DNA of 64,000 nucleotides from Fibrobacterota bacterium. Lineage in GTDB: Bacteria > Fibrobacterota > Fibrobacteria > UBA11236. Positions 3,001 through 56,839 of this stretch are shown piece after piece. The translations under genes and the position numbers were made by a program. The notes under the pieces are model-generated. The model did not search any database. It was not told where the DNA came from and worked only from the letters and a program-made list of their open reading frames with translations. The stretch spans positions 1-64,000 of the forward strand of contig JAQBPN010000018.1 of NCBI GenBank assembly GCA_028287505.1, read 5' to 3'. Positions within the stretch are counted from its first letter, which is position 1; every line of letters begins with the position of its first letter.

Positions 3001-6000
3001 GCTGAAGGTGCTTTCGGTTTCCGGCAATCACATGATGGCCCTGTCCCTGTTCGAGTTGCAGGATTATCCCGGCGCCCTCAAGCATTTCCAGAAAATCCCC
3101 AATGTCTCCGCCAACCGCGTGGAGTGGGGCAAGTACATCAAGACCCTGCTGGAAAACAAACAGCGTCCCATGGCCGCTTCCCAGTACGAGGCCTACTTGG
3201 CCAAGTACCCGGATGCGGACGATGCGTTGGCCTTCCTGGTGGACTACTACCGCCAGCCCCTCCAGAAGGAAAAGCTGATTCCCAAGCTCGAACTGCAGTT
3301 GGCCAAGAATCCCAAGGATGCGCCCCTGCTCGCCGAACTCATTTCCCTGTACGACAAGGCCAGTCCCAAGTCCATCGAGTACCGCGAACGTTTCCTCCAG
3401 CAGAATCCGGAGGACACCAAGCAGGCTCTGGCCCTGGCGCAAGCCTATGAGGCCAAGAACAACCTGCCGGGCGCGCTCAAGATTTACCAGAAGCTGGCCA
3501 AGGACGCTCCCGCCGACAAGGCGCTCAACCTCAAGACCGCGGAACTCCTTTACTCCGCGCGCCAATTGGACGAGGCCGTGAAATACTTCGAACAGGCCCA
3601 CTCCGCCGACGCCGCCGACAAGAAGTTGACTCTGCGTCTCGCGGGCGTCTACGAAGAGCTGAAGCGGAACGACAAGGCTGCGGAAACCTACGGCGTGGCC
3701 CTGGAAGCCGATCCCAAGGACAAGGCCGTCCAATCCAAGCTCCTCCAGCTCTATACCGCCAAGGGGGACAAGGAACAGATCCGCGCCTTGCTCATGAAGA
3801 TGGACGACGCGGATCCCACCGCCCATCAGGTGCAATACCAGTTGGCGAAGGCATTCCTCGCCGACGGCGATCGGGACAAAGCCTACGTCTATCTGTCCAA
3901 GGCCCTCCGCAACCAGCCCGCGAATCCGGAATATCTCGCCATGCTGCCTTCCGTGGTGCAGAGCGACGAGCAGGTGGACGCCCATTTCGCGGCGCTGCAG
4001 GCCGCGGCATTGCAGCCCACCGCCAAACCGGAATTGCAGGCCATGGTGGCCCGCGGGTATTCCAAGCGCAAGAACAATGCGATGGCGGCCAAGCTCTACG
4101 CAGAAGCCTACGCCAAGAATCCCAAGCTGTTGGACGGACAGCGGGAAGCCGTGGTCGCCACCTATGAAGCCAAGAACCTGGAACTGGCCGGCGCCCTCGC
4201 CGAAAAGTACCTGGCCACGGATGACAAGGACCGCGCCATCCGCGAAATCGAAGTCAACGCGTTCATGGCCACCAACAAGCCTCCGGAAAAGATGCGCGAA
4301 GCCATCAAAGGCCTGGCCGCCCTGGATCCGGAAGGCGCCGCCAAATGGTCCATGCGCCTGGCCCAGCTGGACCTGGCCTCCCGCGATACCGCGGCCGCCA
4401 TCGGCCACGCCAAGGAATTCCTGGACAAGAATCCCAAGAACACGGAAGGCTGGCGTTTCCTGGCGCCTCTGGTCGCCAAGCGCCCGGGCCAGGAGGACAC
4501 CTATATCGCCGTGCTGGAAAAGCTGGTCCAGCTGGAACCGGCCAACCGCGGCCGTTATGATTTGGAACTGGGAAACCTGTACCTGGAGAAGGGCAGCTTC
4601 GAGGACGCGGAGAAATCCCTCCTGAGCGCCTCCAAGTCCAATCCCGCCAGCGCGGCCCTCTGGTTCAAGCTGGGCGAAACCGAGACCAAGCTCCGGAAGG
4701 ACAAGGAGGCGGCGGAAAAGTACCAGCGCGCCTATCTGCTGGACAAGGCCAACCTGACCTACGCCCGCGCCTACGCGACTTCCGTGGACACGAAGGAAGA
4801 GATCAAGCTGAACCTGCCCTTGTTCCAACTGTTGTCCCAGAACGGGCCCAGCGTGGAAGAACGCAAGAAGCTGGCCCAGGCCTATTTCCTGACGGGCGAC
4901 TACGCCAATGCGGCCAAGGAATTCGATTGGCTGCTCAAGGGAGACGCCACCCTGGCCACCAGCGAGCCCATGGTTTCGGAAGCCTACATGCGCTCCGGCC
5001 AGACCGCCAAAGCGCGCGGCCTCTTCGAACAGCGTTTGAAGGACGACCCGAACAATCTCCAGGTGCTCGAAACCGTGGCCAATATCTATAAGGCCGAAGG
5101 CAACCAGGCCGGATACGTTTCCACCGTCGAGAAAATCGTAACCGTGGATCCGAAGTTCAAAGGCTACCAGCTGGTGCTGGCCGTGGAGCGGGAAAAGGCC
5201 AAGGACTATAAAGGCGCCCTGGAACAATATTCTCAGTGGGTCTCCCGTAACGCCGGAGACATGACCGCGGTCAAGGCCATGCTCCGCCTAGCGGAGATGC
5301 AGAAGGATACCGCCTCCCTGATGGACGCCCTGGTGCGCCTCAACCGCGAGAAGGTGGTGGACAACGCCTACAAGTTCCAGCTCGCGGAATTGGATTACAA
5401 GCGCTCCGGCAACGTGGCCGGCGTGGAACGCCTTGTCAAGACGCATCCGGAGTGGAAGCGCGGCAAGGGCATCCTGGTCAAGGAATACATCCGCCAGAAT
5501 GCGAAAGTGAAGCTCCTGCCGCTGCAGGGGTTCCTGCTGGCGGAATCCAAGACCGACAAGGATCTGCTGGATCCGCTCGCGGATCTCTACGTCATGCAGA
5601 AGAAGCCGCTCCAGGCCAATATCGCCTATCATGACCTGCTGGTCGCCAATCCCAAGGACCGGGACGTCTATCTCAAGGTGTACAAGTATTCGGCGGCGAA
5701 CAATTCGCCCTATCTGCCGGACATTCTCCGCATCGGATACGAGTCCTTCCCCGAAGACATGGACATCAAGCGCTCCTACGCCGCCACCTTGGGAAAGACC
5801 GCCAAGGCGCTGGCCGTCTACCAGGAAATCCTGGCCAAGGAAACGGACGTCAAGGTCGTATCGCGCGCCCTGGACATCGCGCTGGCCCTGAACCAGACCC
5901 AGGCCGCGGCGGCCTTGCTGGACAAGTGGATCAACATCGAATCCAAGGAACCGAAAGTCTGGGAACAGGCCCTGGCCGTGCACACCCAGATGGCGAACAA

Positions 6001-9000
6001 GCCCCGCATGATCGAGGACCTGGAGCAGCTGGTCCGGTTCTATCCGGCCAAGAAGGAATACCCTCTGCAACTGGCCCGTCTCTATGAAGACCAGAAGCAG
6101 CCGGACAAGGCCGCGGACATGTACCAGAAGGCCCTGGCCCTGGATCCCAAGAACAAGGGCGTGCAATCCAAGCTGGTCTCCCTGCTTACCGCCCAGAACC
6201 GCCAGCCGGAACTGCGCGAGCTTCTGCTCGCCATCGACCGGAACGATCCCACCGCCAACGAGGCCCAGTTCCTGCTCGCCAAGTCCTATCTGGCCGAGAA
6301 CGATCGCGAGCGCGCCTACGTGTTCGCGAGCAAGGCCTTGCGCAACCAGCCGACCAATCCGGAATACCTGGCCTTGCTTCCCCAGACCGTGGTGAGCGAC
6401 GAGCAGGTGATGGCCAACTTCGCCGCCCTGGAAAAGTTCGCCCTGCAGCCCAATGCCAAACCGGAATTGCAGGCCCTGGTCGCCCGCGGCTATGCCAAGA
6501 AGAAGAATTATCCGATGGCGGCCAAACTCTTCTCGGAAGCCTACGCCAAGAGCCCCAGGCTCCTGGATGGGAACCGGGACGCCGTCATCTCCCTGAACGA
6601 AGCCAAGAATTACGAACTCGCCGGCAGACTGGCGGAAAGCTACCTGGCCAAGGATGACAAGGATCGCGTGATCAGGGAAATCCAGGTCAACGCCTATACC
6701 GTCACCAACAAGCCTCCGGAGAAGATGCGCGAGGCCATCCGCGGCCTGGCCGCATTGGATCCCGCCAGCGCCACCAAGTATTCCATGCGCCTGGCCCAGT
6801 TGGATCTCGGCGCCCGCGACACCGCGGCCGCAATCGCGCATGTCCGCGAGTGGCTCGACAAGAACCCCAAGGATGCCAATGGATGGCGCTTCCTGTTGCC
6901 CCTGGTGGCCAAGCGCACGGGCTCCGAGGACATTTATATCCAGGTGTTGGAAAAGCTGGTGCAACTGGAGCCGGCCACCCGCGCCCGTTACGATCTGGAA
7001 CTCGGGAACCTGTACTTCGACAAGGGAAGCTACGAGGACGCGCAAACGTCCCTCGGTAACGCCGTCAAGGGCAGCCCCGGCAGCGCCAAACTGTGGTACC
7101 GCCTGGGCGAAACCCTGGTGAAACTCCACAAGGAAAAGGAATCCTTCGAAAAGTTCGGCCGGGCCTACCAATTGGAGCCGACCAACCTCACCTATGCGCG
7201 CGCCTATTCCCGCAGCGTGGACACCAAGGATGAGATCAAGGCCAACCTGGCTCTCTTCAAGATCCTGGCCCTGAACGGTCCCAGCGTGGAGGAACGCAAG
7301 AAACTGGGTACGGCCTATTACCTGAACGGCGACTACACCAATGCCGCCAAGGAATTCGACTGGCAGCTCCAGGGCGATCCCTCCCTGGGCTCCACGGACG
7401 CCATGTATGCCGAGGCCTACATGAAGACCGGCCAGACCCCCAAGGCGCGCGGCCTCTATGAAGCCCGCCTGCAAACCGATCCCAACAACCTCCAGGTCCT
7501 GGAAACGCTGGCCGGCATCTACAAGGTGGAAGGCAATCAGAAAGGCTACGTGGCCACCGTCGACAAGATCGTGACCGTGGATCCCAAGTACAAGGGCTAC
7601 CAGTTGATCCTGGCCGTGGAAAAGGAAAAGGCCAAGGATTTCAAGGGAGCCTTGCAGGAGTACAGCGAGTGGGTCACCCGCAACGTCAACGACGACGTGG
7701 CGCTCAAGGCCATGCATCGCTTGGCGGATCAGCAGAAGGATACCGCCAGCCTGATGGACGCCCTCGTCCGCCTGACGCGCCAGAAGAATTCCGACCCGGC
7801 CTACGCCTTCCAGTTGGCCGAGGTGGACTATGTGCGTTCCGGCAACATCGCCGGCATCGAGCGCCTGGTCAAGTCGCATCCGACCTATACGCGCGGCAAG
7901 GTCATCCTGGTCAAGTCCTATTATAAGAAGGGCGCCCTCGCCAAGATGGTCCCTTTCCTGCCGTTCCTGAGCGCGCAGGCGAAACTGGACAAGAGCCTGT
8001 CGGAACCGTTGGCCGACCTGTACGCTTCCATGAAGAAGAGCGTTCCCGCCAACGAGGCCTATTTCGACGCCGTGCGCTTCGACAAGAAGGATCGCGACCT
8101 CTTCGACAAGGCGTACAAGTACGGCAAGGAACACGATTCCCCGTATCGCGCCGCCCTGTTGAAGCAAGGCTACGAGGCCTTCCCCGACGATATCACCATG
8201 AAGTTCGACTACGCCCTGACGTTGGGGAAGACCCAGAAGGCGTTGGACCTCTTCGTGGATATCCTGAACAAGGACCACAACAATCTGGCCGCCGTCCGCA
8301 ATGCCGCGGAGATTTCCGTCGCCCTGGGCAAGACCGCGGACGCTGCCGATCACTTGCAGCATTGGGTCACCCTGGAACCTGAACAGGTCCGCCCCTGGAC
8401 CCTGCTGGTGGATCTTTACACCCAGACCAAGAGCGACACCAAGCTGGCGGACGCGCTGGAACACCTGTCCAACCTCTCCCCGAAGAACGGCGACCTCGCC
8501 TTCCGGGCCGCCATGGTCAACAAGAAGATCGGCAACAAGGAGAAGAGCCTGGACCTCCTGACCAAGGCCGTCGCCCTCAACGGAACGAATCCCATGTACC
8601 AGAAGGAGTTCGGCTTGATGCTGTTCGGCTCCGGACAGGTGGCCAAGGCCAAGAATCCCCTCTTGATCGCGGACCGCTCCATCAAGAACGACGAAGCCAT
8701 CAACTCGGCTCTGTACAACATCTACCTGAGCGAGAAGAACAAGGGCCTGGCCCGGGAGCGCCTGCGTTTCCTCTTCGCCCTGAAACCCGCCGACAAGAAC
8801 TACGCGTTCTCCCTGGCCCGGTTGGAATCGGACCTCAAGAATCCCGCCGAAGCCGTCAAAATCCTGGAACGCCCCAACCTCAAGGAAGACCTGAACGCGG
8901 AAATGTCCTTCCTGCTCCTCGACGGCTACTTCAAGCTGGGCCAGAAGGATCGCGCAGCCAACCTGGGACCGGTGCTGATCCGGAAATACCCCGAGGAAGC

Positions 9001-30891: not shown

Positions 30892-31136
30892 CAAAGGCAT
30901 TCGGATGGGGTCGAGCCGCCATTCCACCGAAAAGACCGAATGTGGAATTGGTGTGTCCGCTGCGGGCGAAGAGTTTCGACCCTGGGCAGACGGCAGTGGT
31001 AGCGGTCAAGCGGGTGGCTCACGGCCCCTAGGGCCGTTCGCGGGCGTTCGGAGCCGCTTCATTGGAGTCTTAATAAAAGAACCGCGGGGCAACTTTAGGC
31101 GGGATTATTGAGGATGGAGGAATATGGAAGCGTTTC

Positions 31137-31272
31137 GTCGGGCGACGGGCGTCGGGCGTCGGGCGTCGGGCGAAAAAACCGGGGAGCGCCCTGAAATAGG
31201 GCAGCAGACGGTTTTTTCTTAGGGGCTAAATGGTGCGGAAAAAGTTTTACGCCCGACGCCCGACGCCCGACG
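31137..31272 (+). mobile_element. GTCGGGC element A (non-coding, MITE-like)
   Basis: The left end is five GTCGGGC units, the second mutated to GACGGGC (31,137-31,171). The right end is three GCCCGAC units (31,251-31,271). Inside, GAAAAAACCG (31,172-31,181) and CGGTTTTTTC (31,209-31,218) form a perfect 10-bp inverted repeat around a GCCCT/AGGGC hairpin. The A-tract/stem/T-tract form would act as a terminator in both directions, and the element lies just downstream of pepA. Homology to element B extends about 45 bp beyond the left repeats (GGCGGGATTATTGAG ... GCGTTTCG). Confidence 0.8.
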
Positions 31273-31321
31273 AAATCTCGCTGACGGAGCGCTTCGTCTC
31301 AATCCCAGCCGCTCTCGTTCG

Positions 31322-39003: not shown

Positions 39004-39050
39004 GAAGAGTTGCGGAGTTGGCGGCAAGGCGACTTCGTTAGCGGGATTTC

Positions 39051-39181
39051 GTCGGGCGTCGGGCGTCGGGCGTAAAACTTTTTCCGCACCCTTTCACCTC
39101 TAAGAAAAACCGTCCGCTGTGCGAAATCTCAAGGCACTCCCCGGTTTTTTTCGCCCGACGCCCGACGCCCGACGCCCGACG
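39051..39181 (-). mobile_element. GTCGGGC element B, same family as A in opposite orientation
   Basis: Three GTCGGGC units (39,051-39,071) at one end and four GCCCGAC units (39,153-39,180) at the other. Read on the minus strand it matches element A almost throughout, including the inner pair GAAAAACCG (39,104-39,112) / CGGTTTTTTTC (39,142-39,152) and the GGTGCGGAAAAAGTTTTAC end, but the central hairpin differs. Relative to the gene it follows (recG) it has the same polarity that element A has relative to pepA. The 297-bp gap between recG and carB contains only this element and the carB promoter. Confidence 0.8.
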
Positions 39182-39285
39182 AAACGCCCCTCCAACCCTC
39201 CGCACTCAATAATCCCGCCCCAAAATCCCCCCCGGCAGGCCCATTTCCATGGCCCCGCGGCCGGGAAAGCCCGGTCCAAAAGTGT

Positions 39286-48291: not shown

Positions 48292-48316
48292 GACTAAACT
48301 GATCTACTCCCTGTTC

Positions 48317-48463
48317 GTCGGGCGTCGGGCGTACGGCATCTCTGCCGTCAAAAGCTACGCGCCTAGGCGTCGGGCGAAAAAAACCAAGATTAAGATCGCG
48401 ATGTATCCATTCAGCTGGAGATCTTGCTCTTTTCGCCCGACGCCCGACGCCCGACGCCCGACG
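48317..48463 (+). mobile_element. GTCGGGC element C (non-coding, divergent inside)
   Basis: Two GTCGGGC units (48,317-48,330), an inserted stretch, a third unit (48,369-48,375), then the inner part and four GCCCGAC units (48,435-48,462). The interior can form an imperfect stem (GCGAAAA/TTTTCGC and CAAGAT/ATCTTG). It lies between convergent rlpA and the glycosyltransferase gene, and its right half encodes the last residues of that glycosyltransferase. Confidence 0.75.
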
Positions 48464-49652
48464 AAGATTGTACAGACCCCGGAGACATCCTTTGCACTCG
48501 TCTTCTGTGCTTCTGACCCTTCCAGGTGAACTCCCCGAAGCTTCCCGCCACCACGGCCGCGATAATCAACGGGATGTGCACCAGGCTCGTGGCCGGAAAA
48601 TGCCGCATCAATTCAGGCTTGCTGAACAATCCGGCTCCCTTCCGCATCACCAGCCAATCGGTCCCGATTTTGACGGCCCAACTGGCCAGCCCGGCCCATA
48701 GGAACCCGCGGTTGAACGCGCCGGCCAGAATGCACAGGGGAATGGAAGCGTAATAGGCGAAGATGCCCGCCAGGAAAGCGGTTTGCTTGGGCTGGTACAG
48801 GCTGGTTTTGCTCGCCCAGCGTTTCCGCTGTTCCCAGAACTGTTCCAGGTTCAGGGGCGGTTCGGTCTGCACCTGGCTTTCCGGTTTTATGGAATATCGG
48901 ATGCGCCATTTACCCAGCTTATGGATGGCCTGGATCAGGAAATCGTCGTCGCCGCTGACGATGTCGGTGGCGAATCCCGCCGACTGGTCGTAAACCTTGC
49001 GGCGGTAGGAGATATTGTTGGCGTTGCCATGCACGGGGAAACGCAGGCCGATAAGCGCCGCCGCCACAACCCCATGGGACAGGAAATCCAGGGCCTGGAT
49101 GCCCGTTCCGGGCATTTCCTTTTCAATAGGGTAATAGGTGGTCAGGCCCAGCACCAATCCCGTGTCCTCGCCGTATTCCGAGACCAAAGTGGAGATCCAG
49201 GCGGGGGACATGATGCAATCGGCGTCCGTGGTGACGATGATTTCCCCGGTCGCTTTTTGCAAACCCCGGCTCAGGGCGTATTTCTTGGGGCTGAAGCCGG
49301 TGGCGGTTTCGGTCAGGGTGACGGGATCGAACCGCCCCGGCCAGACAGCCGCGTATTCCCGGAGGATGTCCGGGGTGGCATCGTCGGAGCGGTCGTCCAC
49401 GACGATGATTTGCAGCTTGGACATGTCGTAATCCTGGATCCGGAGGCAATCGAGGCATTTCCTGATGCGGGACTCCTCATTGCGGGCGGCGATGAGGACC
49501 GTGACCGTAGGCAACAGTTTCGTGGGCGGAATGGGCGGGGCCGAGGCAAGCCGGTTCAAACCCTTCAGGAGGTTCCGATTGAGATAGGCATAGATGGAAT
49601 TGGCGAGTCCCAAAAAGATCAAAATAGTGGGAAAAAGCATTGGGTTGGCCAT
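48411..49652 (-). CDS. Membrane glycosyltransferase, GT2 family
   Basis: A 413-residue processive-type GT2 enzyme. An N-terminal hydrophobic helix precedes the GT-A fold: VLIAARNEESRIRKCLDCL, IIVVDDRSDDAT, TTDADCIMSPAW (DxD) and a later SGDDDFLIQAI plus QRKRWASK in place of QxxRW. Two to three hydrophobic helices follow. It probably makes or modifies a polysaccharide or glycolipid at the inner membrane. The final about 15 residues ([18 protein letters not shown]) are encoded by repeat element C, so the native C-terminus has been replaced or extended by insertion. The ATG at 49,652 is the only reasonable start. Confidence 0.88.
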   Translation of the reverse strand: MANPMLFPTILIFLGLANSIYAYLNRNLLKGLNRLASAPPIPPTKLLPTVTVLIAARNEESRIRKCLDCLRIQDYDMSKLQIIVVDDRSDDATPDILREYAAVWPGRFDPVTLTETATGFSPKKYALSRGLQKATGEIIVTTDADCIMSPAWISTLVSEYGEDTGLVLGLTTYYPIEKEMPGTGIQALDFLSHGVVAAALIGLRFPVHGNANNISYRRKVYDQSAGFATDIVSGDDDFLIQAIHKLGKWRIRYSIKPESQVQTEPPLNLEQFWEQRKRWASKTSLYQPKQTAFLAGIFAYYASIPLCILAGAFNRGFLWAGLASWAVKIGTDWLVMRKGAGLFSKPELMRHFPATSLVHIPLIIAAVVAGSFGEFTWKGQKHRRRVQRMSPGSVQSSSGVGRRASGEKSKISS

Positions 49653-49719
49653 CTGTGTGCGTAGAAGGCTGTTTCATCACCCTAATCGCCCACCAAATAT
49701 ACACGAATCCTGTATTCCT

Positions 49720-49804
49720 GATTGTTGGCGCCGAAGTGGCCTTCGGCATAAATCGGGACCGCGCTTCGCGCCCGCGCCTCGCGGCGGGTCCGGCGCCAAC
49801 GATC
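49720..49804. ncRNA. Multibranch structured element 1 (orientation unknown)
   Basis: Ends GATTGTTGGC (49,720-49,729) and GCCAACGATC (49,795-49,804) pair, and pairing can extend to 14 bp. Inside are GCCGAAG-tggc-CTTCGGC (49,730-49,747) and a GGACC/GGTCC stem (49,756-49,760 with 49,787-49,791). The latter encloses two hairpins, GCGC-ttc-GCGC (49,761-49,771) and CCGCG-cct-CGCGG (49,772-49,784). Almost every base is paired in this hand folding. Could be an RNA or a DNA-level structure; it is in the divergent gap before DUF177. Confidence 0.5.
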
Positions 49805-49880
49805 AACAATGGCGCTACCGCGCCAATTGGGGCTTGGAAACCCAAAGCCCCAAACCACGCGCTTTGCGCATGGTTGTTGA
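49803..49880. ncRNA. Multibranch structured element 2, adjoining element 1
   Basis: TCAACAA (49,803-49,809) pairs with TTGTTGA (49,874-49,880). Inside are GGCGC-tacc-GCGCC (49,811-49,824), TTGGGGCTT pairing with AAGCCCCAA (49,827-49,853), and ACCA-GCGC-ttt-GCGC-TGGT (49,854-49,874, one mismatch). The end strands of elements 1 and 2 can also pair with each other, giving alternative folds. The remainder of the 269-bp gap (49,653-49,719) is plain sequence. Confidence 0.5.
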
Positions 49881-49881
49881 C

Positions 49882-49911
49882 TTGACGGAATTGCCCCAAT
49901 TTACCTACTTT
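49882..49911 (+). promoter_or_regulatory. Promoter candidate for the DUF177-rpmF-fab cluster
   Basis: TTGACG (-35, 49,882-49,887), an 18-bp spacer, then TACTTT (-10, 49,906-49,911). The TTG start at 49,922 follows 10 nt later. The promoter begins right after structured element 2. Confidence 0.5.
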
Positions 49912-55969: not shown

Positions 55970-56839
55970 ATGCACTGGCGAATACTCGATAGCGGCCCCC
56001 TGGATGCGGGGCATTCCGGGGCCGAAAACATGGCCATCGACGAGGCCATCCTGGCCGAGGTCGAATCCGGCCGTTCCTTGCCCACCCTCCGCGTCTATGG
56101 CTGGTCGCCCGCCTGCATCAGCCTGGGCCATTCCCAGAAGGCCGCCCAGGAACTCGACCTGGACCGCGTGCGGGACCTGGGATACGATATCGTTGTGAGG
56201 CCCACGGGGGGCAGGGCCGTCCTGCACATCGATGAATTGACCTATTCCATCATCGCTTCTCCGGATGCGGAGGATTGGTGTTCCACCCAGGCGATTTCCT
56301 ACCGGACCATTTCCCAGGCCGTGGCCCAGGCCCTGGCGGAAGCGGGATTCGGCGTGTCCCTGGACAGAGGCTATCCCGTGGAAAGGCCGCAGGCCCTGAG
56401 GGCCATGACTCCCTGCTTTTCCTCCACGGCCCGTTCGGAAGTGGTCTGGGGCGACCGGAAAGTGGTCGGTTCCGCGCAGCGGCGCCTGCGGGGCGCGTTC
56501 CTGCAACATGGATCCATCCTGGTTTCCAAAAGCCACCGCACCCTGGTGGACTGCCTGAACCTGGACCCGGAGAAACGCGCGCGATACCTGGAAATCCTGG
56601 ACCGGAACGCGGTATCCTTGGAAGAAGCGCTGGGACGCGAGTTGAGGTGGGAGGATATGGCGAAGGCATTCGAAGGACGATTTATCCAAGCGTTGGGGAT
56701 CGATTCAGCGTACGGCGGACTGAATAAGAGCGAAGCGGAAAGAGTTGCGGAGTTGAGTGGGGAGAAGGCCAGACACAGCGAGCTGTTGATGGAGATCACG
56801 TCGGGCGTCGGGCGTCGGGCGTCGGGCGCGAAGAGGTGA
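55970..56839 (+). CDS. Octanoyltransferase, LipM-like
   Basis: A 289-residue member of the biotin/lipoate ligase fold. RPTGGRAVLH-DELTYSI, TPCFSSTARSEVVWGDRKVVGSAQRR and QHGSIL match LipM-type octanoyl-ACP:protein transferases, with Cys149 at the expected nucleophile position and Lys164 in the binding site. It would start protein lipoylation. The ATG at 55,970 begins the conserved fold. The last about 12 residues ([12 protein letters not shown]) are encoded by the left repeats of element D, so the insertion altered the C-terminus. The 98-bp gap from rnc holds nothing obvious. Confidence 0.85.
   Translation: MHWRILDSGPLDAGHSGAENMAIDEAILAEVESGRSLPTLRVYGWSPACISLGHSQKAAQELDLDRVRDLGYDIVVRPTGGRAVLHIDELTYSIIASPDAEDWCSTQAISYRTISQAVAQALAEAGFGVSLDRGYPVERPQALRAMTPCFSSTARSEVVWGDRKVVGSAQRRLRGAFLQHGSILVSKSHRTLVDCLNLDPEKRARYLEILDRNAVSLEEALGRELRWEDMAKAFEGRFIQALGIDSAYGGLNKSEAERVAELSGEKARHSELLMEITSGVGRRASGAKR

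Follow-up and report, generated by a model that had tools for sequence, protein, structure and literature searches.

A structured 163-bp element beside a Fibrobacterota operon promoter is very probably a non-autonomous relative of IS200/IS605 transposons

Results

Fold and borders of the intergenic element

The window analysed here, a whole stretch of 64,000 nucleotides from contig JAQBPN010000018.1, belongs to a draft genome (G000) with 6.07 Mb in 130 contigs, the nearest relatives of which are Fibrobacteria MAGs. It contains a DUF177-rpmF-fab cluster, whose gene names come from the reading of its open reading frames and from the assignment in the original prediction. In the gap preceding this cluster, positions 49720-49880 had been proposed to form nested multibranch structures, and these are present as drawn: the outer stem GATTGTTGGCGCCG/CGGCGCCAACGATC closes one structure, and the 7-bp stem TTGTTGA/TCAACAA closes an adjoining structure with three hairpins. 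On the minus strand, which is the preferred reading of the element, the three-hairpin structure lies 5′ of the other multibranch structure. Alignment with the other copies described below places the element borders at 49719-49881. The features are as follows.

49719..49881, minus strand: whole element, very probably mobile DNA, 163 bp, 5′ GTCAACAACC ... CCAACAATCA 3′; gene-free; borders common to other copies; orthologous site empty in five congeners (G001-G005)
49803..49880, minus strand: part A, three hairpins closed by TCAACAA/TTGTTGA, corresponding to an IS200-type right end (downstream of tnpA, antisense)
49855..49873, minus strand: hairpin 1, CCATGCGC-AAA-GCGCGTGG
49828..49852, minus strand: hairpin 2, TGGGGCTTTGG-GTTT-CCAAGCCCCA
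49810..49825, minus strand: hairpin 3, TGGCGC-GGTA-GCGCCA
49724..49800, minus strand: part B, a left-end-like module with the outer stem GTTGGCGCCG/CGGCGCCAAC around further hairpins
49755..49791, minus strand: inner stem of part B, GGGACC...GGGTCC on the plus strand, at the place where other copies have hairpin 4
49730..49747, minus strand: inner palindrome of part B, GCCGAAGGCCACTTCGGC
49882..49911, plus strand, outside the element: putative promoter, with TTGACG at 49882-49887 and TACTTT 18 bp further, kept in five congeners

Subterminal hairpins, a feature of non-autonomous elements derived from IS200/IS605, are present at both ends of the element. It contains no transposase gene and, with 163 bp, is too short for tnpA (about 400 bp); the element is therefore not an autonomous IS200/IS605 insertion sequence.

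The predicted RNA folding energy of 49720-49880 is −85.8 kcal/mol on the plus strand and −91.3 kcal/mol on the minus strand, as compared to means of −64.9 and −66.8 kcal/mol for dinucleotide shuffles. The stretch thus lies 20-25 kcal/mol below its shuffles on both strands (z = −5.25 and −5.26, respectively), and none of the 200 shuffles folded as well on either strand. Moreover, in a GC-corrected scan of 160-bp stretches over the whole window, it is among the top two folding outliers.

The strongest folds of the window also include long inverted repeats of tandem CGTCGGG heptamers, with three or four heptamers per arm, at about 31136-31280, 39050-39190 and 48316-48470, and further arms at 56799 and 57255. 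Their loops span ~90-100 nt, or 440 nt for the 56799/57255 pair. They are unrelated to the element studied here and look like another dispersed repeat family.

The element is an insertion beside a putative promoter

The orthologous intergenic site was found in five of five genomes of the same genus. In each, the flanks align and the structured block is missing; the distance between the anchors is about 15 bp in the nearest relative versus 174 bp in the window. The empty site in all five congeners indicates that the element is an insertion. The end of the element abuts TTGACG at 49882, which, judged from the sequence, is likely the −35 box of the operon starting with the DUF177 gene, and the promoter-like TTGACGG and the sequence after it are kept in all five congeners. 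The proposed position directly upstream of the operon promoter is consistent with this arrangement, and any effect of the element on the adjoining promoter would be a side effect.

Dispersed copies in four other genomes

In order to find copies in other genomes, we used a covariance model, R1, which was refined to R2 and then to R3. A BLAST search with the element found no second copy in its own genome, and the covariance models likewise detected only the copy in the window. They identified six copies in G001 (three full and three truncated) and three in G005, as well as 15 in G156 and three in G147, which represent two other families of the phylum. The search of other genomes suggested in the original prediction thus revealed relatives of the structure in four genomes, but none at the orthologous site in the congeners.

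The G001 copies lie at unrelated loci and have the ends GTCAACAACC...AACAAT and a similar architecture, with much changed sequence. Typical ends are GTAAAG...ACAAAATGA in G156 and GTAAGC...GGAAATCA in G147, and the hairpin feet across the copies are mostly GTCA, GTAA or GTAC. No target duplication was seen in the flanks of the copies examined. A search around the three truncated copies gave no partner half, and a version carrying an open reading frame was therefore not seen by that route. In addition, no transposase-like gene was evident near the G001 and G005 copies, as judged by eye from the open reading frames of partial sequences. Searches of plasmids and phages with copies of the G001 and G156 types gave no match, nor did two pattern scans of viral contigs.

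Several copies carry additions. Between hairpins 1 and 2, the G001 copy at L079:1501-1695 contains one more perfect hairpin, CGATTGGCAAAGCCAATCG, which also occurs in the truncated copy L084; this is modular growth of the structure. In five G156 copies (L143, L144, L151, L152 and L154, from position 1501), the hairpin 2 loop holds ~45 nt extra with a hairpin of its own, as if a second small element had been inserted. A truncated G001 copy at L090:7478 starts at the stop codon of a long open reading frame (4458-7478), and its insertion may therefore supply that stop codon.

The fold is maintained by compensatory changes

Among the 53 base pairs of the fold, 19 had changed on both sides in an alignment of six copies and 40 in an alignment of 17 copies, in which none of 500 shuffles reached any of the measures. 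In the 17 copies, 90.7% of the cells are paired versus 35-38% for slid partners, although the alignment was fitted to the structure and hence favours pairing counts. In hairpin 1, where the alignment is unambiguous, C-G/G-C/A-U exchanges are plainly visible. The proposed structure is real, non-random and evolutionarily maintained.

The original prediction had also pointed to switch-like partner swapping. The alternative pairing of ATTGTTG, CAACAAT and TTGTTGA exists in the window copy, but the stem concerned, helix 1, is one of the most weakly conserved stems of the wider family, with eight of the 17 copies unpaired at one pair, and the switch reading was therefore dropped. In Rfam 15, no match in the window exceeded the gathering score, and a lax threshold over the elements in the loci with further copies gave no convincing match, in agreement with the earlier statement that no known family was recognised.

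Similarity to the ends of IS200-type transposons

With a G147 copy as the query, we detected a 31-nt match on Pediococcus plasmids, adjoining an apparent decayed IS200-like tnpA. In the Enterococcus relatives, tnpA is annotated as IS200/IS605, and the outer end on its downstream side, in antisense orientation, forms three hairpins as in the element, for example GTAAATATCCACCCGCATAGCGGGTGGCTTTTTAATAGCCCTAGAAGGGCT. The IS200-type element of another genome, G010, likewise has a three-hairpin end beside tnpA. In G010, the hairpin end of the IS200 element also adjoins a group II intron reverse transcriptase (L094:3-1340 and 1387-1443), which has a domain V-like end.

R3 was built solely from gene-less copies, without any IS sequence. 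We applied it to 29 IS200 loci across Fibrobacterota, retrieved by the TnpA protein, and obtained 28 matches. In 27 of them, the distance to a tnpA border does not exceed 250 bp, a zone that makes up 17.9% of the area (binomial p about 1e-19, which is overstated because the IS copies are related to each other). The matches occur at both the downstream and upstream ends and are antisense to tnpA in 27 of 28 cases. In contrast, 30 unrelated control loci of equal total size yielded a single match, at 9.1 bits. Individual IS ends score modestly against R3 (11.8-27 bits), mostly through hairpin 1. Placed side by side, the G159 IS end reads GTCAACTACCAC and the window element GTCAACAACCAT. Part B and the IS left ends observed have different inner orders. 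A short GCC..GGC hairpin in part B was considered as a homologue of the GCCAGAAGGC motif in IS left ends and rejected; given the different order, this likeness is not used as evidence.

Search for a transposase

Does the host encode a fitting enzyme? No Y1 transposase (Y1_Tnp) or relative of IS200 TnpA was found in the draft assembly of G000. No cognate Y1 transposase was found in G156 or G147, where the Y1 genes are of other types, and the Y1 genes of G001 (L093 and L095) lack ends of the element's type. The fitting enzyme, found in none of G000, G156 and G147, may be absent from these draft assemblies, or else the copies could be old. In G156, a RAYT-like Y1 transposase gene (L155:1141-2110) has its own short palindromes, which are arrayed on either side of it and are unlike the element.

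Discussion

The structure, its compensatory evolution, the dispersed copies, the empty orthologous sites and the strand-matched similarity to IS200 ends together support the interpretation that the element is non-autonomous mobile DNA derived from IS200/IS605 (MITE/PATE-like), in which the structured ends were kept and tnpA was lost. We consider this very probable. We further infer a transposase acting by a single-strand mechanism and a fold kept for recognition by that enzyme.

The fold itself hardly arises by chance from GC-rich DNA. The window does hold other strong inverted repeats, but z is about −5.3 on both strands and related structured copies exist in four other genomes; the family and its covariation refute this explanation, to which we assign practically no probability. 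The strong RNA fold, the compensatory changes and the adjoining promoter would also suit selection at the RNA level, either of a non-coding RNA gene that is mobile or repeated or of a riboregulator acting on the DUF177-rpmF-fab operon. The original prediction had offered a regulatory RNA or small RNA gene of the operon as one option. However, the same site is empty in five congeners that keep the promoter, copies lie at unrelated loci, Rfam gave no match and the ends are shared with IS200 elements. Moreover, the element lies upstream of the promoter and is thus probably outside the operon mRNA. A function as RNA is therefore very improbable, and the DNA-folding site, another option of that prediction, is very probably the right one.

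A closer alternative is that the element resembles REP/BIME (REPIN) and owes its spread to a domesticated Y1 transposase (TnpA-REP/RAYT) instead of an IS200 transposase. The enzyme superfamily and the hairpin logic are common to both (PMC6006769), and hairpin 1 has GT at its 5′ foot. The element also resembles REP/BIME in being palindromic, intergenic and Y1-linked, but it is larger, has IS-like ends and lacks the GTAG/GTGG foot, for which the GTCA, GTAA and GTAC feet mostly stand. As for copies flanking a TnpA-REP gene, only one of about 16 G156 copies is near a Y1 gene, at ~350 bp, and the palindromes by that gene are its own, of another type. Furthermore, the ends match IS200-type elements on either side of tnpA. 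We accordingly regard spread by a domesticated enzyme as improbable.

Among known systems, the bcr1 repeat of the Bacillus cereus group is a mobile element of about 155 bp with a reported multi-stem structure. The element studied here is, by description, alike in its size, its multi-stem fold and its probable mobility. The IS200-type insertion sequences of Fibrobacterota, Enterococcus and Pediococcus share with it the three-hairpin right end, a left-end hairpin and the matching relative strand, but they carry tnpA and have another inner order in the part corresponding to part B. PATEs are transposase-free relatives of IS605-type transposons in Haloquadratum walsbyi (PMC3119063) and Halanaerobium (PMC7290912); in Haloquadratum, transposase-free elements outnumber the transposons, and some PATEs arise by deletion of the core (PMC3119063). 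Like PATEs, the element is short, dispersed and without a transposase gene, and has near-terminal palindromes related to IS200/IS605 ends. No target duplication is seen in PATEs. Unlike PATEs, as compared by architecture, the element has one end made of three hairpins and another made of a closed multibranch module, and compensatory change has preserved its fold across families within one bacterial phylum.

How would such an element move? Insertion without target duplication is established for IS200/IS605, and single-strand excision and insertion of this kind are known for IS608 and ISDra2. Based on these systems and on the element that is very probably IS200-derived, we propose the following model.

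Recognition: Part A, with its three hairpins, would serve as the right end and part B as the left-end-like module. A Y1 (HUH) transposase supplied in trans would recognise both ends as folded single-stranded DNA. The shape is presumably what the enzyme reads, which would explain why the fold is kept by compensatory change.

Excision and insertion: The cut ends would be joined into a single-strand circle, which would then be inserted into a single-stranded target without target duplication. Y1 HUH transposases of the IS200/IS605 family bind subterminal single-stranded hairpins and cut out a circle of single-stranded DNA, which they then insert on the 3′ side of a short target (PMC6006769, PMC7290912).

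A more far-reaching idea, which we regard as rather unlikely, is that these copies form a phylum-wide, self-evolving lineage of structure-only elements, with the multibranch fold kept across families. Such elements would use diverse IS200-type transposases through their shape and would sometimes come to lie beside promoters, insulating or tuning them.

The element very probably belongs to an already known kind of mobile element, and its reading as a regulatory RNA is not supported. A strongly folding, covarying intergenic sequence beside an essential operon can thus be the ends of a single-strand transposon, and RNA discovery that relies on covariation may be misled by it. To the Fibrobacterota the finding adds a family of non-autonomous IS200-type elements defined by their structure, for which Rfam and a limited literature search gave no earlier description, and its divergent copies are numerous enough to test which features of the fold the Y1 transposase recognises.
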